A DNA stretch of 58,876 nt from a virus. The notes beneath the pieces were generated by a model. It made no database searches and was not told where the DNA came from. It worked only from the letters and a program-made list of their open reading frames with translations. This document shows positions 5,801-57,600 of the stretch, in pieces (the stretch's first letter is position 1; each line of letters opens with the position of its first letter). The DNA lies in the IMG/VR virus record IMGVR_UViG_3300017706_000666, positions 1 through 58,876 of that record; one strand, 5' to 3'. Both the position numbers and the translations under genes were made by a program.

Positions 5801-8052
5801 ACTCCAGAAGCTCTGTTTCTGTGGTCGTAATAAACAATTCCAAAGTCATGAGCGGCTCCAGCCTTAAAGGAGGTTAGGTCGGCGCCATCAGACTGAATGA
5901 CATCTAAGCTACCACTAGCCACCTCGTAGTCAAAGAAGTAAGACCTGATAGCTCCACTAGAGCCAATACTGAAATCGTTCAGACTGAATCCTGAAGTCGG
6001 GTTGTTGTATTGGCTATTTATGATTAAGCTAATGTCTGACGAATCAAACAGGTATGCTTGAAAGGTATTTAGACTGAGACCACCGTTGTGTGTCCCAGCT
6101 AGCAGAGTTCCGTTTGTAGTGTCTACAAAATCGTTTCCAATTGTCGCGCCAGAGTTGCTAATCTGGAGCGGGGCCACAGCCTGAACAGCCTCTAAGTCTA
6201 CATTGACGCAACGAATCTTGAACTTAACGTTGTTTGTTGCGCCATCAAACTCAGCAGAATATATTTGAAAATCAAGCACACCCTCTAGCCATACAGCCAG
6301 CCTGTCGGCGTCGGCATTGGTCCCGGGAGATTGTGCCCCGCCAGTTTTTTGAAGCATAGCACTCGCACCCGAAAGGGGGTTGGGAGCATTAGGAGGACCA
6401 CTAAGGGGCTCGCTCAAAAAGGTGCACGATACCTGTCCAATAGTGCCAACAATGTTGTCTTGAATCCAAGTGAAAAGCTCAGCTTGTGTAGCCGCTGTGG
6501 GTGCGGGGTGCTGTGACTGAAAGGTTAGGTTGCCCACAGGCTTTAAAGCAATACCGTTAAATATCTCGTCGCTGTCCAAGACAAACATGTCGTCAGCGTT
6601 AATGAGATTGCTACCATTGTTGTAGTAGGTCGCCGTAGTGTATGCCTGCCTAGTGTTCGGACCCGTACCGTCAGCACCTGTTGCCGCAAATCCAATTTTA
6701 CTTGCGGAGATGTTGACGTTAAAATCAACAACCCCTTGATTGTCCTCAATCCCTAATGCAGGGAAGTTCGATAGGTCAAGATTAAAATTGATTCCGTCAG
6801 TAGTGGAGTCCCCAAACCTTGCAAACGGTTCAGTCGGAGGTGCAAAAAACCCAAAGGGTACCGCTCCGCCAATATCAGCAGCCAAAAATTCTTCCTTCTG
6901 GTTATTGCTGCTTGAGTCATCAAGTATTTCGGTGGCACCGTCTAGTACAGGAAGGTTTAGATTCACCGCTGTAGCTGACCTAGGAGAGAAAACGTTATAG
7001 GCGTATACGTCTGTATTCTCTAAATTGTCAAAACCCTCTACGTAGTCTCCGTACATCAGCCTTCCGCCACAAATAGCTTGGCTTGACGCGAGCCTAGGCA
7101 CAGCATCAAACGGCTTGTTTGCTTCCTCATCCGAAAGCGCGGGGTAGACTCCATCGTTTCTAAAGATGAATGATTGAGTTCCTCCGACAACGTTATTGTC
7201 AAGTTCTGCAACCTTGAGAAAAAGCTGGTCGTTGTTCTTTCTAGCAAAGACACGAATCTTTCTTACAGGTCCGTCCGAGTTGGTTACGGTTATCTCAAGC
7301 TCGTTATTATCACCACCCAAGAACTCCATAGCCGGAGCGTTAAAGGCCATGTTTGTAGGGCTTACCGCAAGGTCTGAGTAAATACCAAGGGCGGATACCT
7401 CACCGTCGTCATACACGTATTGATACGTGAACTGAAAGCAACTTTCCTTCAGGTTGTTTGAGCCAATGGTGGGATTTGTGATAAACCGAAACGTAGCAGC
7501 GGTCTGTGGCGGCTGCTTGCATACGGTCAGAAACTTCTGCTTTTGAATAGCAGTTCCACTAGTAAGGTTGGCGTCATAGTTACCCAACAATAGCTTAGTG
7601 GCGTTGAGTTTTCTTGGCTCGTTCCTGTTGTCCGTGAAGTAAAGAAGGTGCTCTTGGTGTTGATTGATGACAACGTCACCCTTCACAAAAGCATCACGCT
7701 GAAAGTTCAGAACAGAATCCTGATACAGCTTCTCATACCTGTCCGTTACAGAATCATATCTGTATATCCCGTGATTGTTAGCTGAATTGTACAAGAAGAA
7801 GTACATGCACTTACCCGCCTCGCAAGGAACAACGCCAATAACCCTGTTGTCTCCAGACGATGGGATAGAGTCCGCTGTGTTCTCCGCTGGCAATACGGCT
7901 GTAGTGCCCTCAACATTCTTTATGATTCCTTGAGTCCCGTCGGTTTCGTGAGATACGCGCACGTTAAGAGCGTCCGTCATCTCAAACGGCTTCACCAACC
8001 TCTCATCTTCATCCTTGTTGAGGTATTGGGGTACGAGCTTTTCAATCGCCAT
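2839..8052 (-). CDS. Large tail-hub / stabilisation-type protein
   Basis: 1,737 residues, the second largest protein of the phage. The N-terminus (LVPQYLNKDEDERLV, then a description-like run with YFTDNRNEPRKLN near residue 140) and the long beta-rich body fit the proteins annotated as phage stabilisation or muzzle proteins, which close the tail of P22-like and crAss-like podoviruses. It follows the ring-like connector gene with a TAATG overlap at 8052, and the ejection proteins follow it, the order expected for a tail tip that seals the packaged genome. No enzymatic motif was seen. The exact structural role is inferred. Confidence 0.75.
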   Translation of the reverse strand: MAIEKLVPQYLNKDEDERLVKPFEMTDALNVRVSHETDGTQGIIKNVEGTTAVLPAENTADSIPSSGDNRVIGVVPCEAGKCMYFFLYNSANNHGIYRYDSVTDRYEKLYQDSVLNFQRDAFVKGDVVINQHQEHLLYFTDNRNEPRKLNATKLLLGNYDANLTSGTAIQKQKFLTVCKQPPQTAATFRFITNPTIGSNNLKESCFQFTYQYVYDDGEVSALGIYSDLAVSPTNMAFNAPAMEFLGGDNNELEITVTNSDGPVRKIRVFARKNNDQLFLKVAELDNNVVGGTQSFIFRNDGVYPALSDEEANKPFDAVPRLASSQAICGGRLMYGDYVEGFDNLENTDVYAYNVFSPRSATAVNLNLPVLDGATEILDDSSSNNQKEEFLAADIGGAVPFGFFAPPTEPFARFGDSTTDGINFNLDLSNFPALGIEDNQGVVDFNVNISASKIGFAATGADGTGPNTRQAYTTATYYNNGSNLINADDMFVLDSDEIFNGIALKPVGNLTFQSQHPAPTAATQAELFTWIQDNIVGTIGQVSCTFLSEPLSGPPNAPNPLSGASAMLQKTGGAQSPGTNADADRLAVWLEGVLDFQIYSAEFDGATNNVKFKIRCVNVDLEAVQAVAPLQISNSGATIGNDFVDTTNGTLLAGTHNGGLSLNTFQAYLFDSSDISLIINSQYNNPTSGFSLNDFSIGSSGAIRSYFFDYEVASGSLDVIQSDGADLTSFKAGAAHDFGIVYYDHRNRASGVQKIGDVNVPHFGSAQRQGREGRTSVDLRLIHEPPPWATKWAPVYSKNNTYEKILQVSVAEAALGKKTDFADIRSSDGTKTRPVLQGLEGGINGQIFISMRPLEGKSNSYRDFKGAEISYEYKEGDVLRVLEYVGPQGIVRPMNEFKITSYQFYNDDDQNPIKLTDSTSQDDEDNYRRTGWFLTLRDNSTPGFDRDSVRLGTDFFSQRCLVEIYRPKRATEAKLYHEVGEQYDIVEVGGARTHAGDRSNSTSPTFSISVVNANRFTSDERLYRGDRVLTTASSSGYVFVENLFDNGDGTNTYTIHPSNPFTQNTIGSSVGNNTITAAGNNGLFPGVITLNQGDVYLRIREQLSNAEIDYTPTLQSDITRAFSPIDVDSAVYVKYVIEDERVSDFFDSKAVSIGRPHIETPEQREISRNSAVTYSEPFVSDSARLNLSSFNPVLFPFKDYNSADGFITYLVDKGESLLVLQEKKISATPVGRQLIEAAQDGMLVTSKNVLGTETYYAGIYGPGRNPESVVDRFGITYFADMEAGKIVRVSSKGIEPISDVKLESFFENLFADLLVREQIPRIPCGFDPENSEYIVTVEGQQVNDITIGSTNVGDVPLPPTNPRIAGANGKLKSVASFENLPTWDKEALSWESDVIRPVARLPQWNTIGTAVMYVDRLTERASVFIEPQKQRESATIEMDLVHSKGSFRGVCQFNPGDGSVLFPTNCVSIRAAVADDASVAVSVAAGTDDAGKTIAWGATKNFWLSLYSFNPEMYAHLHNRFFSFENGQIHRHNVNSTYNNFYGRQYNSVVEVVSKENPSSVKVYNALSLEGNDTWSAVVSNTQQTTNITEPMYEEREGMYYTVIPKDITSNSTANMSHKVVLGRVESKDGNKVKITSRISNLPFSIGDAAYLLASSSETNLSATINSVDSRTEVTLSNASGVSAGDILMALSQDEINGDKIRDYHAKIKLTNDNTGAVELFAVNAAYSRSPLHNDQKE

Positions 8053-8858
8053 TAGTACTTAGGTGCCTGCTTGGTGTTCTTGCGAATCGTCTTCAGGGCC
8101 TCCTCCATACTAAATGCCTTGAGCCTTGCGTTCGCCTTGCGTCTCTCGTTGTAATACTCAACTCTGGCTCTGTTCTTCTCTACAGCCGGAACGCTGCTTT
8201 TACGCTCTACCAGTTTGTAGTAGATGTAAGACCGAAGAGCCTCCTCTGCCTCCACATGAACCGTGGGATTGACAGAACGAGCCTCGTCTGCGATGTACTC
8301 AATAACAACCTCAGAGAACGTGCCAGCCGATACTTCAATTCTGTTCTGGTCTTCGTTCATCCTGTACTGCCCTTGATATTGTCCACCACCAAGACCGTAA
8401 ATCTGTCCAATATTGTTTTGGTAAACGTAGTTGCTGAACACGATGTAGTCGTCGTCACCGAACACGCCTAAGCCAAGCGTTCCGCCTTTAGCGTCTACCC
8501 TGTCGTTTATGCCGTCACCGTCACTATCAATGATATTACCAGATGCATCGGTGCTGTACTTCTGAGAGTAGTTAATATTCTTGTTCTCTCCCAAAACGTA
8601 GACCAACCCGTCCTCGCCCACCAAGCCAATCTTGACTAACGAGACAAAGTCATCTGGCAAGGTCACCGTGTCGTTGCTGTTCTTCGACAACTTCAGAGAC
8701 CTGACACGCTTAAGCATATCAAATCCCATCTCCCGGATTCCGCGCAAGGCAAAGTTCTTTACGACCATGTCCGATACGTTGCTCACGTAATCGTCCGAGT
8801 CGAGAGTCAGAACAAAGTCATTGACTACTTGGTCTACGGTAACTAGATTTCTTGCCAT
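8052..8858 (-). CDS. Ring-like head-tail connector / tail tube protein
   Basis: 268 residues. The N-terminal part is helical with the motif ALRGIREMGFD (about residue 37) and a following VTLPDDFVSLVKIGL strand. The centre has an Asp/Gly-rich insertion (DSDGDGINDRVD) that resembles a calcium-binding loop. The C-terminus is a long basic helix ending KQAPKY. This architecture is typical of the small ring or tail-tubular proteins between the portal and tail hub of podoviruses. It lies between another connector candidate and the stabilisation protein in one transcript. Assignment is from architecture and context. Confidence 0.65.
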   Translation of the reverse strand: MARNLVTVDQVVNDFVLTLDSDDYVSNVSDMVVKNFALRGIREMGFDMLKRVRSLKLSKNSNDTVTLPDDFVSLVKIGLVGEDGLVYVLGENKNINYSQKYSTDASGNIIDSDGDGINDRVDAKGGTLGLGVFGDDDYIVFSNYVYQNNIGQIYGLGGGQYQGQYRMNEDQNRIEVSAGTFSEVVIEYIADEARSVNPTVHVEAEEALRSYIYYKLVERKSSVPAVEKNRARVEYYNERRKANARLKAFSMEEALKTIRKNTKQAPKY

Positions 8859-8861
8859 GCT

Positions 8862-9599
8862 TTATCTCTGTTGGGGTTGTTGCTGACCGTAATTAGAAAC
8901 GGCGGCATCCCTAAGGTTAATACCAATCAATCTAGCCATCTCCTCAACCAGCTTGGGGACATAGTGCTCAGGCATCTCAAAGTCAGTACTGCTGGCTGCG
9001 CTGTAAGCCTCTTTGTTGTTTAGCGTGGTAAAGCCAAACTTGGGAAGAGATGAGGTCCTTGCACCTGTGGCGGCGTTAAGTCCTTCTGGCTGCTTGTAGT
9101 ACCTGACCTTAATCTTATTCAGACTTTGAGGGTACACCTCAATCTGGTCGTCAAGAAAGGCAATAGGAGAGTCCTCGGTGGGTGCGCTAAGATTGCTGTG
9201 AAGCACATACTCTAACTTCTCTTCGTCATATTCAACGGGAATAGTAACAGAAGTATTCTCTCCAAACAGCAAGGAGCCGTCAGTCTTTACATTTATAATG
9301 CGAGAAAGGTCGTCAGGCTTAGCAAAATGAGAACCAGTGGTCCTAGAAATCGTGTTTGATGTTTTGGTGAACAAGGACAAATCCTCCTTGATTTGCTTAA
9401 TCAGAGAGTTGTTTCTGCCGGGGTCTACGCCTCTTTTCCTAAGCGCCTCCGCATTGACCAACTGACTAAAAAGACTGTTGAACACGTTTGTTTGCGCGAT
9501 AGGAGCGAAAGAGTTGAACTCTGTTGGCGTAACAAAGCCTCGCTCATCTTTGTTAGCGATGTCCTTTAGTGCATTATAAACCTCTCTAACACTTGCCAT
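8862..9599 (-). CDS. Head-tail connector candidate
   Basis: 245 residues, mixed alpha/beta, with an N-terminal EF-hand-like phrase (DERGFVTPTEFNSF) that is also common in structural connectors, a central beta region (RIINVKTDGSLLFG) and a polar C-terminus ending in Gln/Pro-rich sequence. It is the first gene after a clear terminator (9628-9652) and a host-type promoter (9617-9624). It therefore seems to head the connector, stabilisation and ejection transcript. The family was not recognised with certainty; a connector or tail-completion role is inferred from its place next to the ring-like protein. Confidence 0.6.
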   Translation of the reverse strand: MASVREVYNALKDIANKDERGFVTPTEFNSFAPIAQTNVFNSLFSQLVNAEALRKRGVDPGRNNSLIKQIKEDLSLFTKTSNTISRTTGSHFAKPDDLSRIINVKTDGSLLFGENTSVTIPVEYDEEKLEYVLHSNLSAPTEDSPIAFLDDQIEVYPQSLNKIKVRYYKQPEGLNAATGARTSSLPKFGFTTLNNKEAYSAASSTDFEMPEHYVPKLVEEMARLIGINLRDAAVSNYGQQQPQQR

Positions 9600-9616
9600 A
9601 GTAAGGGATTATCTCG

Positions 9617-9624
9617 CAAATATA
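9617..9624 (-). promoter_or_regulatory. Bacteroidota-type -7 box TATATTTG
   Basis: Exact match to the Bacteroidota -7 consensus TAnnTTTG on the minus strand, 17 bases before the ATG at 9599 and just after the terminator at 9628-9652. No clear -33 TTG is seen at the usual distance. The terminator-promoter pair makes it likely that transcription restarts here. Confidence 0.6.
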
Positions 9625-9627
9625 CAG

Positions 9628-9652
9628 AAAAAGAAAGGGGGCTTGTGCCCCC
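9628..9652 (-). terminator. Rho-independent terminator
   Basis: On the minus strand a six-pair stem (GGGGGC/GCCCCC with a 4-base loop, 9637-9652) is followed by TTTCTTTTT. It ends the transcript of the 276-residue gene whose stop is at 9679. Confidence 0.8.
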
Positions 9653-9678
9653 TCTCCAGTATCCATGCTGGTTATGCG

Positions 9679-10509
9679 TTATGCAATAGCCTCCAGTTGG
9701 CGCTCAATATCGGACAAAACCAGCGAGCCCTTGTCAGTCATGACAAAGCGAGTCATGACCTCGATTTTATCTTGTCCCACGGGGACGGAGGCAATCATCT
9801 TACCAGAGTCAAACCAGACCACGGCACCCTGCCTGAAGTCCAGAATCTGGAAGTCAAAGCCCTCGACCACTGTTGAACGTGCGTTCACCATGGGGCTGTC
9901 CACCATGGACATGAAATGGTTTGGGTCTCTCTTAGCTATCTGCACCAGAGTTCGCTTGATTGAGAGGTCCTTCTGATTCGTGTTAACGTTCAGTGCAACG
10001 GCAACGGGAAGCAATTCTTCAATGGGTCTTGACTTGATAATTGCAATAGCGTCATTGATTTGGAACTCTTGCTCCAAGACCTTCTCAGCGTCGTCTTCTT
10101 TGTTTACTAGCTTAAACACAGTACCTCCGTTTGACGCATTGTCTGGGTGCGCATCTAGGTACGCAACAAGGTTTGGCTTGTCGTAGTTGACAATCAATAC
10201 CTTGTTCTCAAAGTAAACGTGAGAGCGAACGGCTTGTGAGCTTTGCTCATCGATATAGATACTTGGCTCTGCTGGGCAGTATCGAATACCCCTAACGGTG
10301 TTGGTCTCTTCATCAAACACCTGTACACTGTTGCCTCTAATCTTAAGGAAGATGCCGCCTTGACGGTTTAGCGTCTCGTACAGTTTGGGAAGTTTAGACT
10401 CGTCTCGCTGAGTGCGCTTGACGGTTCTTTTCTTAGCGGGCTCTGATGCCACAACTTTTTTGATTGGGGCTTTTTTAGGGCGACCCGGACCCTTTGTTGT
10501 CTGTTCCAT
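9679..10509 (-). CDS. Unknown late protein with an AT-hook-like N-terminus
   Basis: 276 residues. The first 40 are strongly basic and start with KGPGRPKKAP, which contains the GRP core of an AT hook, so the tail could contact DNA. The rest is a globular alpha/beta domain with several hydrophobic strands (IFLKIRGNSVQVFD, HVYFENKVLIVNY) and a helical C-terminus. It lies alone between the capsid gene terminator (10538-10566) and its own terminator (9628-9652). A minor capsid or DNA-associated role is possible, but nothing in the sequence settles it. Confidence 0.6.
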   Translation of the reverse strand: MEQTTKGPGRPKKAPIKKVVASEPAKKRTVKRTQRDESKLPKLYETLNRQGGIFLKIRGNSVQVFDEETNTVRGIRYCPAEPSIYIDEQSSQAVRSHVYFENKVLIVNYDKPNLVAYLDAHPDNASNGGTVFKLVNKEDDAEKVLEQEFQINDAIAIIKSRPIEELLPVAVALNVNTNQKDLSIKRTLVQIAKRDPNHFMSMVDSPMVNARSTVVEGFDFQILDFRQGAVVWFDSGKMIASVPVGQDKIEVMTRFVMTDKGSLVLSDIERQLEAIA

Positions 10510-28398: not shown

Positions 28399-28614
28399 AT
28401 GACGTACAAGAAAGCAAGAACATACGCAGACATGGAAAGCGACCCTCGCGTAGACTGGATTTCCAATGAGAGAGGAACAGGAGAAGGAATCTGGGTCTAC
28501 CTAAAACAAGGGTACATCAACGAACACCTTGAATGCGGAACCATTCACGAACACACGGTAGCAGAGTGCTGCCTTCAGCTCAATACACAAGTAACTCAAA
28601 CCCCTTCATCATGA
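28399..28614 (+). CDS. Unknown small protein, coupled to a secreted protein
   Basis: 71 residues, starting MTYKKARTYADMESDPRVDW and containing GIWVYLKQGYINEHLECGTIHEH. The YADMESDPRVDW to GIWVYLKQGY part has the look of a small domain found in phage and mobile-element ORFs, but I cannot name it. The stop overlaps the start of the secreted protein gene (ATGA at 28611), so the two are translated together. It lies in a plus-strand island inside the minus-strand late block. Confidence 0.55.
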   Translation: MTYKKARTYADMESDPRVDWISNERGTGEGIWVYLKQGYINEHLECGTIHEHTVAECCLQLNTQVTQTPSS

Positions 28615-29042
28615 AGAACATCATCATCATCCTCACCGCCCTTCCGGGCTTCCTCTTCGCTCAAAGCGAAATCGACTTCAACATCATCGTGGCTCCTCAA
28701 GGAAACTTGTTCGCATCTACGGTAAACAAGGACGCTGTATGGTCGCACTTCTTAGAGCCGCTATACTACAGCATCGACAACCCTGCCTTCGTTCCATTTG
28801 AATATGGCTCAACAGTGCTAGACTTTACTACAGGTCAAAAAGGAATCCACCACCTGCTGCTTACGGCTGATAGCGATACGATTGCATACCTAATACTTCG
28901 CGTTGACAACACGGTACTGGCAACCACTAGCTACCGCGAGATTCTGGTCAACGAAGCCGAAGACTCGAATGCAACTTACGCGCCATCACGTAACAATCAA
29001 GTGAACAGCATCTTTGGGCTTACACCCGGACTGCAAGATTAA
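28611..29042 (+). CDS. Secreted protein with signal peptide, unknown function
   Basis: 143 residues. The N-terminus MKNIIIILTALPGFLFAQ is a clear type I signal peptide ending in AQ, the ending typical of Bacteroidota exported proteins. The mature part is beta-rich with few charges (FNIIVAPQGNLFASTVNK, then GIHHLLLTADSDTIAYLILR). It has no lipobox and no type IX sorting domain, so the product should stay in the periplasm or be released. The start at 28611 is chosen over an upstream one because it gives the signal peptide and the ATGA overlap. A host-envelope role such as superinfection exclusion is a guess. Confidence 0.65.
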   Translation: MKNIIIILTALPGFLFAQSEIDFNIIVAPQGNLFASTVNKDAVWSHFLEPLYYSIDNPAFVPFEYGSTVLDFTTGQKGIHHLLLTADSDTIAYLILRVDNTVLATTSYREILVNEAEDSNATYAPSRNNQVNSIFGLTPGLQD

Positions 29043-31392: not shown

Positions 31393-31659
31393 TCACTTAG
31401 AAAGACCCCATTTGTAATTGCTGAACCCGCACTGGACCTTGAAGTCTATAGATTTAATCTTGAGACTCAAGTTGTTTTTTTGTTTTTTAATCTTGGCTGG
31501 AGTCTTGAATGCGTATGCAATGAGTCTGTCCCTATGATGGTCTGACCCCCATATCAAGTCTTTATCGTTTCCAGCTAGGACTACGTCCCCTACTCGGTAA
31601 TCTGTTTTTGATTTACCGTCATGAAGAACCACATCGCAGAGATGTATTGGGTCTCTCAC
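31393..31659 (-). CDS. Unknown small protein
   Basis: 88 residues, beginning MRDPIHLCDVVLHDGKSK. The pattern VGDVVLAGNDKDLIWGSDHHRDR followed by a basic stretch suggests a small beta barrel with a tail (ANKKQK-type lysines). The start overlaps the preceding stop (ATGA at 31656), so it is coupled to the membrane/coiled-coil gene. Not recognised. Confidence 0.6.
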   Translation of the reverse strand: MRDPIHLCDVVLHDGKSKTDYRVGDVVLAGNDKDLIWGSDHHRDRLIAYAFKTPAKIKKQKNNLSLKIKSIDFKVQCGFSNYKWGLSK

Positions 31660-31895
31660 TGCATCTGGTTTTTAGCCAGAAGAATCTTGACCTCTTGCAC
31701 TTCTTTCAGTAACTGCTTGATGTCCTCTTTCATCTCGGAGTTGTCGGTCTCCAAGGCAATCACCCTCCCTTTAAGTGAGCTGTAATCTGACTGGTGCTTA
31801 ATCCAAATCCCAATCAGTGAGCCCGCTATAAGCAATAGCTCAAACTGTGTCAGTGCGTCCATGTCACAAAAATAGTAATCAATACCCACACTCAT
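31656..31895 (-). CDS. Membrane-anchored coiled-coil protein
   Basis: 79 residues with one hydrophobic segment (about 19-33, FELLLIAGSLIGIWI) followed by a heptad-like coiled coil to the C-terminus (LKGRVIALETDNSEMKEDIK and beyond). One helix plus coiled coil is typical of spanin-like or envelope-spanning phage proteins, or of an anchor for the preceding secreted product. The start at 31895 is supported by an ATGA overlap with the T9SS-sorted protein gene. Role in lysis or surface modification is inferred from topology only. Confidence 0.6.
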   Translation of the reverse strand: MSVGIDYYFCDMDALTQFELLLIAGSLIGIWIKHQSDYSSLKGRVIALETDNSEMKEDIKQLLKEVQEVKILLAKNQMQ

Positions 31896-33094
31896 TTCAA
31901 AACTAAAACATGTCCAGTAAGATTCACCGCTTGTGATGACCCAACCTTCGACGCCCTAAGAGAATACACGTAGGTTCCGCTCGCGGTGCCCGTCATATAC
32001 CACTGGTCTCCGGGCTGCTCACCCGACCACACGACCTGTCCCCATCTATTGTAAACGCGCATATCCCACTCTCTCCAACACTGTGGGTCTGTAACAGCAT
32101 AAAAAGAATCGTTTATCCCGTCACCGTTTGGCGTAGCAGCATTAGGAATAAAAACATCTACGTCCTCGCACACCATACCGCCCACGTCTTCGCACGGCAA
32201 CCCGCTATCACAATCAATGTATTCAGTTACCACCGAGTACTCTGTTAAGGTCACGGTGTCTGTTAGGTAGATATACTCCGTCAGGACTACATCAACGTAG
32301 GTCGTGTCGTAAACAAGGGTCTCGGTGAATACAGTATCCGTCACGTATATGTAGTTGTCTATATATGTCGTGTCGTACATGTATACCTCTATGTAGTTGT
32401 CTACTATCAGTGTGTCGATTAGCGTGATAGTATCAGCTGGCAGCTCCACGAATACTGTATCGGTTTCGTACACGTATACGGTGTCCGTGATGGTGGGGTC
32501 TGGGCAGAAGGTGATTCTGTTGTCGCTCAGGTTGATGTCTGGATAGGTCTGAGTTTGGTTGAAGCTGGTTCCGTTGCTCCACCCTTCAGGGAATGGGAAG
32601 TCCTCGTAGTCCGCCGTTTGAGAAACGTTTATCTGCCAGATTACAACCTCCCAGCAATACCCCTCTACCTCATTTTCAATTATGCAATCCCAGCTGAAAG
32701 GTGGGTTTAAGATGAAGTTTGAAAACCCATTTGTCCATCCAGTATTGTTTGAGGTCATGACATACGACCATCCCGGATGAAATGTATTTGAAGTGCAATC
32801 TGTGTTCTCCCCATAGTCTTCCCCAGTGACTTCATCAACGTAGTGAAGCCCGAACACGAGGTGGCTAACAGACTCATTATTGCCCACGTGAAATCCGCCG
32901 GACTCCTCGCATGTGTTACCATCGAATTGTGTGAACTCATTGCACCCACAGTTCTCCGTATTCAGCCATTGAACTTGGAATGAGTGCAGGCCGTCCGAAA
33001 CAGCCGGAGGTGTGTAGCCTAGAAGTGCTAGGTCACAGGTCTGAGAGAGCCCAATGAAAGGCATCAGAAAGAGGAGAAGGAGAGGTGGTTTCAT
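31892..33094 (-). CDS. Secreted protein with T9SS type B sorting domain
   Basis: 400 residues. Signal peptide 1-18 (LLLLFLMPFIGLSQ). Residues 19-198 form a Cys-rich globular domain with many aromatic residues. Residues 200-293 are a Thr/Tyr/Asp/Val stalk of repeated TDTVYV and DTTYID units. Residues 312-400 are a gliding-motility-associated C-terminal domain (CHU_C type): FIPNAATPNGDGINDSF (315-331), MRVYNRWGQVVW (345-356), GTYVYSLRA and a terminal GHVLVLK. In Bacteroidota such domains direct export through the type IX system and attachment to the cell surface. The product is thus expected on the infected cell's surface. It is the first gene of the late block, coupled (ATGA) to a membrane coiled-coil gene. 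Confidence 0.85.
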   Translation of the reverse strand: MKPPLLLLFLMPFIGLSQTCDLALLGYTPPAVSDGLHSFQVQWLNTENCGCNEFTQFDGNTCEESGGFHVGNNESVSHLVFGLHYVDEVTGEDYGENTDCTSNTFHPGWSYVMTSNNTGWTNGFSNFILNPPFSWDCIIENEVEGYCWEVVIWQINVSQTADYEDFPFPEGWSNGTSFNQTQTYPDINLSDNRITFCPDPTITDTVYVYETDTVFVELPADTITLIDTLIVDNYIEVYMYDTTYIDNYIYVTDTVFTETLVYDTTYVDVVLTEYIYLTDTVTLTEYSVVTEYIDCDSGLPCEDVGGMVCEDVDVFIPNAATPNGDGINDSFYAVTDPQCWREWDMRVYNRWGQVVWSGEQPGDQWYMTGTASGTYVYSLRASKVGSSQAVNLTGHVLVLK

Positions 33095-33098
33095 GGCA

Positions 33099-33257
33099 CA
33101 AAGCTACCACCTTTTTAGGCACAGCTTTCCCATATTCACTCTCTAGTTATCGTGACGTTAGGGGCTCACGATTACCCCATGTGTCTAAGCCCCGTAGGTG
33201 TCAAACTGGTCCGCCCCAGCGGGCCAAGTGCGATACCGTTTCCGTGACTAGGCAAAG
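33099..33257 (-). promoter_or_regulatory. Structured leader of the late block
   Basis: The transcript from the promoter at 33258-33288 would carry a leader of about 150 bases before the ATG at 33094. It can fold into a stable hairpin GGTCCGC/GCGGGCC with a 4-base loop (about 33210-33228) and a stem GGGGCT/AGCCCC (about 33169-33206). A second TAnnTTTG box (TAGCTTTG, 33099-33106) lies 4 bases before the ATG, so a nearly leaderless message is an alternative. No known riboswitch class was recognised. Confidence 0.4.
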
Positions 33258-33288
33258 CAAAGGTACACGAAAAAAACTACAAAGTCAA
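33258..33288 (-). promoter_or_regulatory. Complete Bacteroidota-type promoter of the late block
   Basis: Minus-strand TACCTTTG (33258-33265) matches the -7 consensus TAnnTTTG, and a TTG at 33286-33288 lies 20 bases upstream, the expected -33 position. This is the only host-type promoter in the window in which both boxes are evident. It should be read by the host primary sigma factor. Confidence 0.6.
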
Positions 33289-33308
33289 GTACTTATTACG
33301 CTTCCTTA

Positions 33309-48167: not shown

Positions 48168-48630
48168 CGTAATCTGTGTATGTGATTGTACAGTCCTCAC
48201 ATTGTAACGCCTCAGCAATGAGAGGGTAAACCCTTTTGTATGCATCTGTAGAACCGCTTACGTATCCTGTTGACGTAACGTTCTGCGTCTGACTGTTGCC
48301 GAGCAAGAGGCATCCGCTCGTGTCGCCTTCATCGTTTCCGCAATGAATAAGGATGTGCTTGAAGTTGGGTACATCCAGAACCTCAATCATTCCCTTGTGC
48401 ATCTCACCGAATCTCTTGGTGTATCTGTCGTGATACCCACCCCAAGTCTTTAGCCTTAGGTTGTAGGTACCCGCCGGGATTCTTGTCTCGTGCATCACCT
48501 TCTCTTCCCTGTCTTCGTCCTCAAGCGTGAAGCACAAGAACTCACGGAACTCTGTACCGTTGCTCGCGTCGAACAACAGGCCCAACGTATCCCGCTCCTG
48601 ACTACTGAATCTTATTACCTCTAGCTTCAT
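48160..48630 (-). CDS. DUF5675-like protein, candidate cell-wall enzyme
   Basis: 156 residues. It has the pattern of DUF5675 proteins: FREFLCFTLED, IPAGTYNLRLKTW (51-63), FKHILIHCGN (90-99) and DTSGCLLLG (103-111), the last two recalling the H and S-x-GC pair of L,D-transpeptidases (H96 and C107). A peptidoglycan-acting role fits its place between the giant virion protein and the holin. Its start overlaps the stop of the giant gene (ATGA at 48627), and its stop overlaps the holin start by 8 bases. Catalysis is not proven. Confidence 0.65.
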   Translation of the reverse strand: MKLEVIRFSSQERDTLGLLFDASNGTEFREFLCFTLEDEDREEKVMHETRIPAGTYNLRLKTWGGYHDRYTKRFGEMHKGMIEVLDVPNFKHILIHCGNDEGDTSGCLLLGNSQTQNVTSTGYVSGSTDAYKRVYPLIAEALQCEDCTITYTDYDG

Positions 48631-51600
48631 TCTTCTAGTGCTTCTAAGTAGATGTCGGTCTCAATCTTTGCTGGCTCAAGCATCCCGAAGTATACCCGTG
48701 ACATATCCTCCAGCTCCTTGTAGTCTTGGGGGCTCATGGTCTTGGCCTTGGCTCTCATCAAGACGTAGTAGTCTCTGCTGTTCTTGACACGCTTCTGAAT
48801 CTCTCTAAGCTCAGCGATGTGTTTCTTGTAGGTGTCTGGAAAACGCTTACGCATTGCCGTCTCAGCGATGGGTTGGTTGAATCCCTTGGAGAAGGCATTG
48901 GCAACTTGCTCAGCCTTGAGTGGGTCCGCACCCGCGTCCTCCATTAGCTTCAGGAACCTAGCGCGTCCACCCTTTTCATCAATGCTCTTGACGGCCTCAA
49001 AGAACTGAGAGTCACCGTCAGCGAGGGCTTGAGCTACCACCTCGTATGCCGCCAAGTCCTCTTCCCCTCCGAGGGCCCTAGCCCTACCAACGTTGTCAAG
49101 AGTCTTGATGAACTGCTCAGCCTCCTTGTTTCCGAATCCAATTAGGTTGCCACCAGTCATGGCTAGCCTGAGGTAGTAGTACATCGCCATGTTTGCCTTG
49201 TCCTCAGGACGGACGAAGTATTCTCTACCTGTAGATGTAATCACTTTGTTGCTACCACTGGCAAGGCTGATGACGTTAATCATCGTGTTGTGGCTTTCGC
49301 TAAGGAACTGACCGTATGGACCGATGTATGAGAGCATAGTCATTGGGTCACCGGGTTCCGTTCTGGTTCCGTAGATAGGCACACCACCCTTGACTGAAGC
49401 CCATCTCTCGTAGCGTTCGTCGTAGGTCTCGTCTCCGATTCCGAAGTTGTCCTCTTCAAGCATCGGGAAGATGAGGAACTTGTTGACCGCAAATCTCATG
49501 CTGTTGTCGATGGCCGCAAGCGGGAGCTGAGGAAGCATGTCAACCAGAGTTGATGTACCCACATCCCACCATGCTTTCGTCTTATCTTCTTCTGTCAGTT
49601 GGTCTTCGTCGTCTCCGAAGATGGCAGAGACAACAGCAGGCAATAGAATCTTACCCACCGCGTGGAACGTAGCAAGCTCAGCCACACTACCAACAAGAGC
49701 CTTGCCGCCTTCACCTTTAGCTCTGGCGTTTCCGTATAGGACTTTCTTTGCGTCAGAGACAATACTCCTCTTCTTGTTTACTGCGAACCTAGAGAACGGC
49801 AACAGGAAATTCTGCAACAGGTATGCCAACTGCGGAGCGAACTCCGTACCACCAGCGTACAGGTCAGCCGCCTGTCTTGGGGTAGAAGCAGCTTGGTCTT
49901 TGGTGACCAGAGAGTCTGCATAGCTCAGTGCTTCCTTGTTTGGTCTCACTGCCTGCTCCTCCCAGTCGATGTCACTTACGCTGTCCACAACACCCTGCTC
50001 GATAAGAGAGTCTGCGTAGAATCCAAACCACGAAGCAATCGCAACTACCTTGTCCGTGCCCTTGAGGTTTTTGAGCGCGAGCTTGTTTAGGTAATCTGTC
50101 ATCTTCTGAAACTGCGTAGCGTCAAAGTCCATAGACCCAGTGAACGGGTCGATGTTACCTGCTTCGTAGTCTCTGCTGAACACGGGCGAGTTCTGCAACA
50201 ATCTGTACCTGCCGTTATTATCCAGTGCAATCTTAGAGTCAGCCATAAAGAGACCCTTCCCGCTGTGGTAAACCATCTCGGCTACAGTCTGCAAGACGTA
50301 AGGGAATGTCTTCAGTGGATTCTTCGCTTGGAAGAACGTGTTCAAGATTACTGGAGACTGCTTAGCCGTCTGAATCAAGAAGCCGCCAAACGCTCTGGTA
50401 ATCGTAGCCAGTCTGACAACGTACCCCGGATTCTCGAAACGTTTACCAAACAAGACAAAGTCTTTCTGGAACATAGCGGGAACCTTACCCGTGTCTTGGT
50501 GTACGTACTTGGCAATCTTCCGCTCCAAGGTTTGCTTCACCGTGGTATTTGGAATCAGGTCGTTTGCCTCTTGTGAGTTCATCACAAATCTGTGTGCCAG
50601 CGTAGAGCCGACAGTCTCCATCAGTGTGATGTTCTCTCGCAACGTAGACTCGTTAACCTTGAGGAAGTCAAGACCAATAATTGCCTTGTCTCCAGACAAC
50701 GACCTTGGGTTACGCTCAAAGCTACTGCCTGCCGCCTTCTTGGTCTGTGATAGTGACGACTCCTGAAGAGCCTTGTGAAAGCCCTCGTACATACGCATCG
50801 TCTCATTGGTAGACTCATTCTTGGTCTGGATACGCACGTCAAACGGAGTGTAGTTTTCCTCCATGACAAGCTCCTTACCGAGGTAACGCTCTACGTAGTT
50901 AGAGAACTGCGGCATCAGACCCACGTGCATGTCAACCAAGAAGTCTACCATCTGAACCAGCTCAGGATTAGTTGACCTAACCTTGGCCTGCAACTCCTCC
51001 AAGCTGTTGGTGCCCGCAAAGAGAAAGTCGTATGCGCTTTCCATCTGAGCAATCTCTTCCTTTGAGAACGCACCACCCGCTGCTACTTTCTGCTGGTTGT
51101 GGTACTCGATAGTACGCTGCATCACGCCCTTGAGGTTGACGAACCACTCGGCAGCATTTTGTCCGGCCTGTGTCTCGTTGTCAATCTCAGGAACCTGACG
51201 GCTCATTGAGAAGATTTGCATGATGGCCTTCTCCCGGACACCAGTAATCTTTTTCTTGCTCCGTCTCTCTAGCTCAAGCACTTTTGCCTCAAGCCTCTCC
51301 ATCAGCATGGAGTGTCTGAAGTCAGCACGTCCAAACGCACCCTCGATAGAACCAAAGCCTAGCGAACGACGAAGTCTCGCAAGCGTAATGTCTGTGGTTG
51401 GAAACGCATTTCGGATGTACGAATCCACAGTATCCAAGAAGCCCATGTAAACTCTGGGTCTTGCCTTGAGGCCACCTCTCTTCAGGTCAGCCAAGTCACT
51501 GGCGTAATCGATAGAGCCACGGACAAGAGAGTGTACGTACCCAAGCCCGAATACAGAGCCGTTGACGATGAAGTCGTCGAGCTTGTAGTCTAGGTGAGCT

Positions 51601-54600
51601 AGCTGTCTTCTGTTGAGCTTCAGGAGTCTGTTCCTCAGGTCTGCGAAGTTGAGCTTCGATGGGTCTGCGATACCGAGGATGTCGGCAATCATTGGTTCCT
51701 CAAGCAGTGTGTCAAGGTTCGCTGCAATACGGGGCAGCATCACGTCGTCTACGATGAGCTCAGCGGCAGCCTCGTTCTTGTTGACCTTCTCGTCATACAA
51801 CGCTTCGAGCACACGCTCAAGGTGAGCTGGGTTGCTGCTGTCGAGCTGGTCGTTTGCATTGTTCTTATTCCACTCGTCGATGTAGCGAAGGATGTTCTTT
51901 CTGTTCTGCGACAGCTTGCTTCTCTCGTACTTCTCCTTGAGCTTGTTGTACTCCTCGTCAACACTGGTCTTGTTCTTGAGTGCAAGTCTCTCCGCTCTGG
52001 CGGCAAGCACTGCGTTTCTTCCAAGCGTTTCTTTTGACTGGAACTGGGCAACCAATACAGCGAGGTCCTCAGCTGGTAGCTTGGGGAACGACACTGCCTC
52101 CTTACCGTCCTCACCCTTTTTGATTTGAGGAGCTTTCATTGAGCTCAGGGTGGCAAGCACAGTCTGTTCGAAGTTGCTGATGTCGTCCGCATCCAACAGC
52201 GCGGGGTTAATCTTAGACAGGGACTCCGCGTACTTGTTGTAAGTAGCTGTAGACTTGAGGGCCTCGCCTGCCTTCCTTGGCTTGGCAGCACGAGCTAGTC
52301 TCTTTTGCAATCCACGCACTCGATTCACTTGGTCGAGATACTCCTGCATAGCCTTCTTGGTATCTCTCGCATCAAAGACAGCAGACAGCTTGTCGATGAA
52401 CGTCTGCATAACCTCGAAGCCTTCCTCCTTCAGTCTCTTACCAGAGACACGGTGAGCCTCCCTAGCAATCTTAAATAGCTGTTGCACCTGAGCACTGCTG
52501 AAGGGTGTCTTTGCGTTGTCCTTCATACGCTCTTTGACAATCTCGATTGCCTGCTTCAGGAACTCCCTGTAGTTGCTCGACTTATCTCTCAGCTGTTCGA
52601 GGTCTGCTCTCAGATTCTTAGCTTCGGTGCTGAGCTTGCGAACCTTCTTGTTGACCTCCTTCTTTCCGATAAGTCTGCCGCGCTTGAACTCGTATGCTCT
52701 TCGGTACGCCGCCAATGCAGCCTCCTTTGTCATACCCATGTCCTGCAACAGCTTCAGGATTTCGGGCTTGGCATACGCCATCGTAGCCATCTGACCGATA
52801 GATGCCTCCAGCCTTACTGGAATCTTTCTACGCTTGTCACGCTTAATAGTTGGGTTGCTGTATTCCTTATCTAAGAAGTCAGCAATCTGACGAGTCAGGT
52901 CACCTTGAAACTTTACTTCCCCGGATACATCCCCTGCACTACGGCTAGTTCCTCCCCCTCTAGTTCCTTCCCGTCCAGAAGCTCCACCGCTTCTATCCAC
53001 GTCTCTAGATTCGGGCTGCTCTCTGCCAATCTTGGATACGGCGTCCCGAATAGCGGGAGCCCAATCCGGCGTTCCAATTCCGCCTGCTTCTTTGAGAAGC
53101 CCTTGTCTAAGTTGCTCTCTTGTAATTTCTGCATTTCTATACTTGGTATGAAGTGATTGAATCCTTGACTTATTTGCCTCGCTGTTCTTAAATCCAGCGG
53201 TATAGAGAAGCCTGACAGCCTCCCACGTAATGCTTTGCATCTCTCTTGGAAGCAAGCCTCGTTCATCAGCGGCAATCCTGTATGCTTCAAGATAAGCATA
53301 ATAGTTACCGGAAATAGCGTGAACTGACGAATTAGAAACTTTTAACTCAGCGAATCCTTTCTTCAGGGCCCAAGGTTTCCAGTCTGCAACGCCCTTTACT
53401 TTTATACCAGCTGCTTTGGCTAGATTGGCGACCTCTTTTCCCCCGTAAACAACACCGTTCTTGTCTATGAAGGTGCCCCCAGTTGCTCCGAAGTTAGCTC
53501 CGACCTCCCCAGAAGAGGAAGACATGGGCTTGAGGAGGGCTGCTCCTACAGCGTGAGTATCAATGGTGGTGTCTGAGCCAAATCCGGGGTTGTGGATGTT
53601 GTTGAAGAAGTGTCGAATCTTGTGCTGCTCACCAAGCACCCTAGAAATCTCAGCTACATCTTCGGTAAGCAGGGCCGAAACAGCCTTGTCAATCATAGTC
53701 AAGGAAGACCAAGCGGCCCTAGACTCCTTGCCTTGTGCGTTTGTCTTCTTACCTCCCCGCTCCCCGCTCGGTGTAATGATATCGTAAGACCTAGACATGT
53801 TCAGGTCAACAAAGGCCCACACAGCCATGGCTCTGACATTTCCCGGAGGGAGCTCAACAATAGAAGTACCGACGTACTTAGACAGCTCTCTAGCCCACGC
53901 AACTTTTGCACCCCCTTCATTCATGAAGAAGTCTACCATCTCTTGCGTGACTGGCTTATTGCCATTGTTAACCACAGCTTCGATGACCACCTCTCCAAGT
54001 CTGACGTTTTGATACCAGTCCTTTTGAGGGGACAGGGCAGCAATGGCTGCCGCAACCTGAATCGGGTCAATGTCGTACTCCTCCGCCAGTTGCTGGGCAA
54101 TAATGTTGGCACCATCGTACCAAAGTGTAGCGACCTCCCTTAGGTCTGCCTCGAACGCATCGTGAAGGAAGAGCAGGTTGTTCTTTGCTTCCTCAATAAA
54201 GATATCGTACACCTCATCAGCGTACTTCATTGCGTTTTTACCCTCGAAAACAGACTTCCTAAACTTTCTTACGCCTGCAACGATGTCAAGTTGAGACAAA
54301 AAGAGCGCGTTCTTGACGTAGATTTTAGGCTCGTTTTCTTTTACGTGAGCCAGACTAAGTATGTAACTGTCATCTAGCTTAGATGATTTTGCAGTACCAT
54401 ACCCTTGACCAATTCTAGTCCCTTTAATCGTTTGCTTTTTGATTGACCGAGCAAACTCGCCCATCAACTTGGGCCCGAACTTAGGGTCGTTCTCTGGACT
54501 AGGCTCAGCGAGGGCGTCTTGGAACTTGATAGGCACCCCTTCTGGGGTGGTCTTGCCAGTGTCAAACATTGGGTCTGAAGGCAGGACCTTCTTCGTGTCC

Positions 54601-57600
54601 TTAGCAAGAACTAGCGCACCAATTTGAATCAGCTCGCTAGCCTCAGTAACAGGCATTCCATCACGCTTGTCGTAAAACCAGCTGTGCCTATAGGGATTCA
54701 TACCAACCTGAACCCAACCCTCCTGAACACCCTCAGACTTGTGGTCTTTGTGGTACTCTTTAGAGGCCATGATTTCCTCTGCTTTTGCCTTGATGGTTGC
54801 GGGGTTGTGGTTAACCCAGTCGCCAAACATCCTAGCTATCGTGGTTTTGTTTGTCTTGGTTGCAATACTTAGTGACCCGACAGGACTACCTCCGAACGTA
54901 ACGCCTTTGATTACCCCAGTCTGTGAATAGGCTACAGGCTTTCCGCTGTTGTCACCAATTCTTTTTGCAAAAGATGAGGCGGTCTTGTTACCCTCGTGAA
55001 CAGAGGCAACCCAGACGTCGTAAACATTGTATGCAGGAATATCCAATCTCAATCCGACAAAGTACCCGTCTGGCAACTCCTTGTTAAGGTCATAGATACC
55101 TGTTTCTAACTGCTTGCTCTTTAGAGCCGCTCCAATTTCTGACAACGAAGGCATATCAGGAACCACGTCGAAGGGAGTAATAGGCATGACATCTCTCACC
55201 ACTTCGATGTATTGTTCCTGTGTGAGGGTGCCTTCTTTCATAGCTTCAATAGCAGCTACATTTTCAGGAACTCTGTCAAGTCGTTGATTCCTTTCGAGTT
55301 TTAACTCTTCCTTGAGTTTGATGAGCTGTTCTTCTGTTAGGTTGGCTGTGCTCAAGAAGCTCTCTAAACCAGCACCTACTCTTAGGCCCTCGTCAAGTTG
55401 ACCTTGGAACTTCACGTCCTCGTCGTCAGCAACCTGACGCTCCTCAGGCTTGAGTCCAAGTCTTTCACTCGACTGGGTGAGCTGGGATACAGCTTCCGTC
55501 ACGTCCTCACCAGAGGCCATCTTACCTGTGAGGTTTTCGATAGCACGTCCAACGTCTGAAATACCGGGGTTTGGAATTTTGCCTACAAACGGAACGGCAC
55601 TGAGGCCACGGTTGATGAGACCTGAGAACCGTTCAATCAGTCCACGCTTTACTTCAAGACTCAAGTTGCCTGCCGTGATGTCAGCCAAGAGCTCCGTCAA
55701 GAACTCGTCTGCAAAAGCAGTAGACTGCATGAGCTTGAGGATGTCCGTCTCCTTTGTGCCGTCGATACCCAACGCAGTTAGTTGCTCCTGTACCTTCTGG
55801 CTTTGGAGGACCTTGCTCAGGTACTTGCCGAACTTGTTGGCTACACCCTCGCCCTGAAGCGACTTAGCCAACTCTGTAGCCAGACCAACGAGAGCGTCGT
55901 CACCCAGCAAGGTGTCGATACCTAGCTCGTGGTAACCTTCGTGGTAAGCAGTGTTCTCAAGGATGGCGGGAACGAGGAGGTGAATCTTGTATCCACCGTC
56001 CTGTTGCTTGGCAACAAACACACCACGTCCGACCTTACCACCGGGCACAGCGTTAGCCATGGACGCGACGGTCTTATGAATCATGATACCTTTGAAACCC
56101 TTCTTCGTTTTGCTCAGGGCTTTGACGGCAGTAATAGTGTTTCTCAGTCCATCCATGACGGCTTGAGGCGACGAGATTCTACCCAACCCAAGTGGGAGGT
56201 TCAACGCCATCTTGTCCAACAACAGATTGTTGATTCTGTCGAGAACGCTGTCTGCGTTTGCTCCGTCTACAACGACACTGTCCTGCCCTTCAAAGAGACT
56301 ATCAAGACTGTACTCCTCCAGAACTCTGGAGACGTTGTCCATGATTTGGTTTGTGCTAGTACGAGACCCCAAGTCGTGAGTGATGTCGAGGTCTCCCTCT
56401 AGTTTCGCTCGCTGCTTTACCAAACTGTTGACCTCATTGCGAAGTCTTCTGCGCTGGCTCTTGTTTTCGGTACGGTCGTAGTCAATTGCCTTCTTGGTAA
56501 TCTGTGTCTGAACATCAATCAAAGCGGAGTAAGCCTCCGGGTCTGACTGTCTAAGCTGCTCGTAGAAATCCCTACGCTTCTTGCCCTCTGATTCGTCACG
56601 CTGGATAGCACCAACAAGACGAGCCATAACCTCTCGGCGACCAGACACAGTCTCCTGAGAGTCAAGTTCTTTTTTAAGCTGTTGAATTACCAGCTTGGAT
56701 TGGATGGATGGGATTGAGCTCGCTGCTAGGCCAAGCGCACCAATACTACTACCAGCCCCTGCGATACCACCACCCATTACGGCACCTGCATAGAAGCCAT
56801 TCTTGATGGCCTTATCCATTTGGACAACATCAATGTCCTGACCCTTTGCGTTTTGCTCAATGACGTACTGCATACCGCCTGTAACGGCTTCAGTCAATGC
56901 CTCTTCCCCCATAGCTAAGGGGGTGTTCATGAGCGCACCATAGATGAAGTCAGCAGCACCCTTTGAGTTTGCTCTTAGAGCCTTAAATCGGTCAAAGATT
57001 TTAGCCCCAACGAATGCGGGTGCGCCTTCAGCAACGCCGTAGCCGAGGATAAATCCACCCTGCTGGACCACGTTCATCTTATCAAACCATTCCTCGTCAC
57101 GGGCGATGTCATACGCAGTAAGCGAGCCCATCCCAGACACCACACCAGCCGTCAACTTGCTGTTACCCGTCAGGCGCTGCGTAACAATAGCAGCAGCCAT
57201 CATTGGTACACTGTGACCGAAGTCAGCAACAACGTCCGACATACCCCCTGACCAGTCGCCGTTCTCGAACTTACTGGCTGGGTCTGTCTGAGGCACAGCT
57301 CTGTATCTCTCGATGGACTGCTCAAGATTCTTTGCAGCCATACGATGCATGTTAGTGACAGTCCTGCCATAGGCCCACTCTCCAAACACCGCCTCTACCG
57401 CATTTACACCAAGGTCCATGCTAGCAGACTGCAATGTGCCCACCAGTTTTACAACCTCTGAACCTAGACCACGAAAGAAATCAGCACTAACATTACGACC
57501 TTCGGATGTATCACCGATGTAGCCTGTGTTATTGAGGTCAGCCATGATGTCGTACTCCTCAAGGAGGTGACGCTCAAGATTCTTAACCTTCTCCTCGTCA

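Follow-up and report, generated by a model that had tools for sequence, protein, structure and literature searches.

The presence in a phage genome of a gene whose product ends in a sorting domain for the type IX secretion system (T9SS) of Bacteroidota raises the question of (i) whether the gene belongs to the phage at all; (ii) whether its product is likely to be handled by the host T9SS; and (iii) what an infecting phage might gain from such a protein. The gene lies in an IMG/VR virus record of 58,876 bases, the whole of which was analyzed and is referred to here as the window. A first-pass annotation, made from the sequence alone, had described the gene as standing at the head of the late block and as encoding a signal peptide, a Cys-rich globular domain, a TDTVYV-type stalk and a C-terminal sorting domain, and had suggested that the infected cell would display the product on its outer surface.

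All four of these parts were recovered in the open reading frame (33094..31892, minus strand, stop codon included), which we assign to a family named C0 and refer to as the cargo gene; it starts with ATG and encodes 400 amino acids. The N-terminus, MKPPLLLLFLMPFIGLS followed by QTCD, is a Bacteroidota-type Sec signal peptide (residues 1–17; 33044..33094, minus strand), with predicted cleavage between Ser and Gln. Signal peptides were called by a simple hydropathy test and a check for the Q-rule, according to which most Bacteroidota signal peptidase I substrates have glutamine directly after the signal peptide (PMC5837995); this glutamine was found in 41 of 41 family members. Only two of about 54 window ORFs have signal-peptide-like starts, the cargo gene and the ORF at 28533-29042, in which a second signal-peptide gene, detected by hydropathy, would begin at an internal ATG (28611..29042, plus strand; MKNIIIILTALPGFLFA followed by QS). 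This second gene is kept in five close relatives of the window, and its link to the T9SS gene is putative at most.

The signal peptide is followed by a Cys-rich domain (residues 19–200; 32495..33040, minus strand) that contains the motif ENCGCNEF and, in alignment A2, 30 invariant positions; seven of its cysteines are kept in 43–44 of 44 relatives. Modelled alone, this N-domain is predicted to fold as an Ig-like beta-sandwich (pLDDT 73.8, pTM 0.75). The prediction did not lead to an informative solved relative: the N-domain had no match in the PDB at E < 0.001, comparison by fold gave unspecific Ig-like matches only, and no relative of the cargo protein with a solved structure was found by sequence. 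The stalk that follows (residues 201–312; 32159..32494, minus strand) comprises 112 residues, of which 24 are acidic and none basic, includes eight DT motifs and is rich in T, V, Y and I.

The last part of the protein (residues 313–400; 31895..32158, minus strand) has the features of a T9SS type B sorting domain. Pfam CHU_C (PF13585) matches residues 315–383 with E 7.6e-13 and a score of 48.8 bits (cut-off, 27); the lack of a significant match to sorting models, which the first-pass annotation had named as refuting, thus did not occur. NCBIfam TIGR04131 matches with E 3.3e-6 at 27.1 bits, below its curated cut-off of 35. The full-length model is confident in this C-terminal domain alone, where it shows an all-beta, Ig-like sandwich (pLDDT 72–92 over residues 311–400), and among its matches in the PDB is the T9SS C-terminal domain of mirolase (8qb1), at a weak E of 0.034. 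CHU_C stands at the C-terminus of 41 of 41 sampled family members, and all 41 are matched by TIGR04131 at E 1e-3 or better. Furthermore, exactly one CHU_C protein was found per viral record in 47 of 50 records, the remaining three being contigs that break off within the cargo gene. Since the matches to CHU_C and TIGR04131 and the Q-rule are uniform, the T9SS address is a conserved property of the family. It is thus a well supported prediction that the cargo protein is addressed to the host T9SS and, through it, to the outer surface of the infected cell. No type A sorting domain was found in the window.

The cargo gene is, as had been claimed, the first gene of a minus-strand late block, which also encodes a portal (phrog_6547, E 1e-189), a large terminase (phrog_6681, E 2e-199) and a crAss-like muzzle domain protein (PF25729, E 5.7e-13), while the rightward block holds ArdC and DnaB-like genes. 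The window phage is a marine crAss-like podovirus. Its portal has relatives in Cellulophaga phage phi38:1 and in Flavobacterium phages, so that a Bacteroidota host is very likely, which fits the T9SS address. Both CHU_C and Por_Secre_tail are absent from the three related phage records that were searched (phi38:1, elemoE 6-9C and MW202828), so that the cargo gene is not essential to the body plan of the window phage. A single minus-strand ORF of 3301 codons with a DUF7178 match (48627-58532) lies far from the other late genes in the coordinates of the record.

With regard to whether the gene is a phage gene, a scan of viral contigs with peptide seeds identified 74 loci that encode relatives of the cargo protein, and a profile scan with the N-domain identified 92 stretches, from which 80 loci were kept; we therefore put the size of the family at no fewer than 74 IMG/VR contigs. 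The cargo gene and the gene order downstream of it are kept in five close relatives (L001, L002, L003, L004 and L006). The same peptide seeds found one relative in 84,980 prokaryote species genomes, on a 61.6-kb phage-like contig (L076; WLWP01000006.1) that is binned with a Pseudomonadales MAG, probably wrongly, and whose gene order is common to phage contigs L053 and L054. In these searches, in which cellular genomes were surveyed for the N-domain with exact peptide seeds in a single scan, the N-domain has so far been found almost only in viral contigs. Estimates of dN/dS (0.113 against L006, with dS 0.40; 0.08–0.15 in five pairs of distant family members) indicate that the family is under purifying selection; in the comparisons with L001, L003 and L005, saturation at synonymous sites affects the estimates.

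A fragment of host DNA caught by chance, or a binning artefact, might have been suspected, as CHU_C proteins are abundant in Bacteroidota and the matches in Bacteroidota plasmids cover only the C-terminal part of the cargo protein. Against this stand the synteny in the five close relatives, the spread over 74 or more viral contigs, a sole genomic match that itself lies on a phage-like contig, and the purifying selection. A host insertion or contamination, the former being an outcome that the first-pass annotation had named as refuting, was thereby ruled out, and we give a chance fragment hardly any credence; the survey of other phages, in turn, extended the sorting domain to all sampled members of the family.

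The family is not confined to one kind of phage. Terminases of two kinds were found among the cargo-bearing records (14 of 44 and 18 of 44), and across the family contigs the terminase may be of the phrog_6681 kind (in the window and others), a Terminase_6N ORF of 610–617 amino acids (in contigs of up to 178 kb) or a 590-amino-acid protein with phrog_2 similarity. On sequence grounds, then, the window phage shares the cargo gene with no fewer than two or three lineages of phages unrelated to it. Mapping the terminase lineages on the N-domain tree requires 10 lineage changes where the minimum would be three, and the window protein falls inside a fully supported set of 19 rows in which lineages are mixed. 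The window terminase is 71–73% identical to those of L024/L031/L040-type contigs, where the N-domain is 37–40% identical; the window N-domain is 65% identical to that of a relative on a 178-kb contig carrying another terminase. From this discordance between the N-domain tree and the terminase lineages we conclude that the cargo gene has moved between phages.

In most contigs the cargo gene has company. Of the first 75 contigs, 44 encode directly beside it a small secreted protein of about 120 amino acids, in which a Q-rule signal peptide is combined with a small Cys domain and a tail that resembles an EF-hand or a dockerin; in nine more contigs this protein is encoded close by. The counts include three matches to a gene for an M43 metalloprotease (L060, L061 and L067). 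This EF-hand-like partner (for example L029:9651-10010, with about 49 other loci) lies upstream of the cargo gene in most contigs and downstream in the large-contig group, has glutamine directly after the signal peptide in 25 of 25 proteins, and belongs to no Pfam or PHROG family. Furthermore, an M43 metalloprotease of the pappalysin type is fused to the same N-domain and to CHU_C in L056 (1035-3887), L057 and L066, and an M43 gene precedes the cargo gene in L060 (8692-10011), L061 and L067 (7695-9704). This association with M43, whether by fusion or by adjacency, points to an action on surface proteins. Neither the window nor its close relatives encode the EF-hand partner, and no M43 gene was found in the window. 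We see about an even chance that several unrelated lineages of Bacteroidota phages hold in common, and exchange, a module confined to viruses and made up of surface proteins exported by the T9SS (the cargo, its EF-hand partner and in some cases an M43 protease), which would remodel the surface of the infected cell, in effect a viral surface display by way of the host T9SS.

Other proteins of possible interest were encountered in these contigs. Large secreted proteins with type A domains (PF18962) are encoded at L029:18900-21134, L031:13677-15716, L042:4326-6464, L050:189-1982 and L067:27-2468, those of L029 and L031 just after the portal, within the structural block. A family of proteins of about 137 amino acids occurs as three to four tandem copies after the portal, in the structural block, in L034, L036, L039, L040 and L051. 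The phage records LR745206 and LR756502 (634 and 642 kb) encode four and three CHU_C proteins, respectively, unannotated in the records, and also have one or two Por_Secre_tail matches.

Two features flank the cargo gene in the window. Upstream of it, a conserved non-coding leader (33095..33290, minus strand) was delimited by comparison with relatives; about 165 bases of it are nearly identical in L001-L004 and L006, even though synonymous sites of the gene itself are near saturation in the comparisons with L001 and L003. What remains in L005 is a pair of hairpin cores, GGCCCGC..GGGGCGG and GGGGCT..AGCCCC. We considered the leader as a structured RNA and rejected this, as its folding equals that of shuffled sequences (z -0.07), few pairs covary and Rfam gave no match. 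The leader also contains a promoter-like element, TTG-N19-TACCTTTG (about 33288..33258, minus strand); since the window is not enriched in the Bacteroidota -7 motif TAnnTTTG over chance expectation, this putative promoter was called on conservation only. Downstream, a gene for a small membrane coiled-coil protein (31895..31656, minus strand, the conserved start probably at MDAL) does overlap the cargo gene by four bases. The assisting role proposed for it in the first-pass annotation did not hold up: homologues lie about 2.8–7.9 kb from the cargo gene in L053, L054 and L076 and are missing from the locus in most relatives. Weak matches of the coiled-coil protein to Rz-spanins and holins (E 0.0015–0.009) are of the kind that coiled coils give, and the gene is better seen as encoding a putative independent small membrane protein.

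How might the phage use such a cargo? The reading that we consider somewhat more likely than not is that the protein would be exported by the host T9SS, kept on the surface of the infected cell and there alter what binds the cell. The cargo protein would be made late in infection and cross the inner membrane by Sec, the signal peptide being removed before the glutamine, and the disulfide-rich, Ig-like N-domain would fold in the periplasm; the host translocon would then carry it over the outer membrane by means of the type B C-terminal domain. Type B domains require a barrel of the PorP/SprF family rather than PorV, seem to be left uncleaved, and depend on a region that exceeds 200 residues (PMC10202324); stalk and C-terminal domain of the cargo protein together make up about 200 residues. 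As its sorting domain would probably be left uncleaved, the protein would most likely stay attached to the surface on its stalk through a PorP/SprF-family barrel of the host. A search of 35 viral records gave no PorP/SprF gene, a negative result limited by the fragmentary nature of the records, while the model used did find a match in a Bernardetia (Bacteroidota) plasmid (positive control W06, E 1.3e-56). This suggests that the phage would borrow a host barrel and that the protein would remain on the infected cell.

Once there, the Ig-like domain may attach to, or shield, some component on the surface of its own cell or of neighbouring ones, and the most likely benefit would be a change in what can bind the infected cell, by the masking of receptors against competing phages or the prevention of progeny sticking to the dying cell. 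Receptor masking is proposed by analogy only. In Flavobacterium columnare, nearly every sample exposed to phage had mutations in gliding/T9SS genes, and mutants in gld and spr resisted infection (PMC9233685), which indicates that phage binding depends in some way on the surface made by the T9SS. To mask or change this surface would be the most economical role, and the protease fusions would fit surface remodelling; we thus regard receptor masking or surface remodelling as the most likely function.

The same partners that suggest remodelling can also be read differently. In a secreted enzyme system, the cargo protein could supply the half that binds or serves as scaffold, and the co-secreted EF-hand protein or M43 metalloprotease would work with it in cutting proteins of the surface or the environment. 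The gain would then be new hosts, dispersal or nutrients, rather than the masking of receptors. The frequency of the EF-hand-like partner beside the gene, in both orders, the M43 proteases fused or adjacent to it in several contigs and, in L053, an 829-amino-acid BspA/DUF285 leucine-rich repeat protein encoded between partner and cargo gene (7410-9896) are all in keeping with this. Yet neither the EF-hand protein nor M43 is encoded in the window, and the close relatives also lack the former, so that for this phage the host or some other gene would need to supply a partner; we hold this explanation to be unlikely, if the most serious of the competing ones.

The position of the gene in the late block, and its direct proximity to terminase and portal genes in relatives, could instead hint that the protein ends on the virion, either picked up from the outer membrane at release or as a fibre-like adhesin that would stick particles or infected cells to prey or particles. 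Ig-like domains are indeed frequent on phage particles. However, a cleaved Sec signal peptide takes the protein out of the cytoplasm and thereby away from the site of virion assembly, all members retain the sorting domain, and the cargo protein matches no PHROG structural family, which makes a virion protein distinctly improbable. Even less probable, in our estimation, is that the cargo blocks the export path of the host by competing for SprA and the PorP/SprF anchor, with a loss of the gliding adhesins used in phage binding, the N-domain merely holding the protein in place. The use of specific PorP/SprF barrels by type B cargo (PMC10202324), the lack of such a gene in the viral records and the phage resistance that follows loss of gld or spr (PMC9233685) would fit, but the N-domain is strongly conserved, with its 30 invariant positions, and some phages have it joined to a protease, and a mere plug would need neither. 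We therefore retain surface masking or remodelling as the preferred reading.

Phage-encoded T9SS cargo has precedents from 2019 and 2020 (PMC7468147, PMC6949934). In Cryophage, the use of the host system was likewise proposed for proteins with T9SS sorting domains (PMC7468147), but these domains are of type A, occur on an endoglucanase, a GH39 and a PA14 protein, and vary between variants of one phage, whereas the family described here is type B, virus-specific and under purifying selection across several phage lineages. The crAss-BACON phages (PMC6949934) are also crAss-like and encode a sorting-domain protein that borders the head module on its upstream side; there it lies beside or is fused with BACON repeats, in place of which the cargo protein has the Cys-rich ENCGCNEF domain, and neither the family nor its partner is described in that report. 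For P. gingivalis phages, proteins with Bacteroidota-type Q-rule signal peptides were suggested to modify the host envelope, with no mention of T9SS (PMC10367356). The best viral model, A0A7S9STS8 of Virus NIOZ-UU157, belongs to the same family (structural match E 1.8e-22; 63% identity over the N-domain); this unclassified virus also has a crAss muzzle protein, and the protein bears only the automatic name 'gliding motility-associated C-terminal domain-containing protein'. With cellular type B substrates of the SprB class (PF13585/TIGR04131), the cargo protein shares the Q-rule signal peptide, the type B domain and an extended region before it. Unlike these, whose genes usually, though not necessarily, lie beside a porP/sprF gene (PMC10202324), the phage cargo comes without PorP/SprF; at 400 amino acids it is not a giant adhesin, and its N-domain was not found in cellular genomes in the search made. 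Our literature search found no description of this cargo family. What is new is a virus-specific type B family, its breadth, the conserved partner, the protease fusions and the exchange among phage lineages.

Proteins on the surface of an infected cell bear on superinfection, on lysis and on the fate of cell debris, and for the Bacteroidota, which dominate in seas and guts, knowledge of how phages change this surface is scant. A conserved, virus-only cargo family allows a direct test of whether phages use the T9SS/gliding machinery during infection, and genetic tools for such a test exist in Flavobacterium johnsoniae. If the predicted address is correct, the infected cell would wear a viral surface protein, which would probably change what can bind to the cell.
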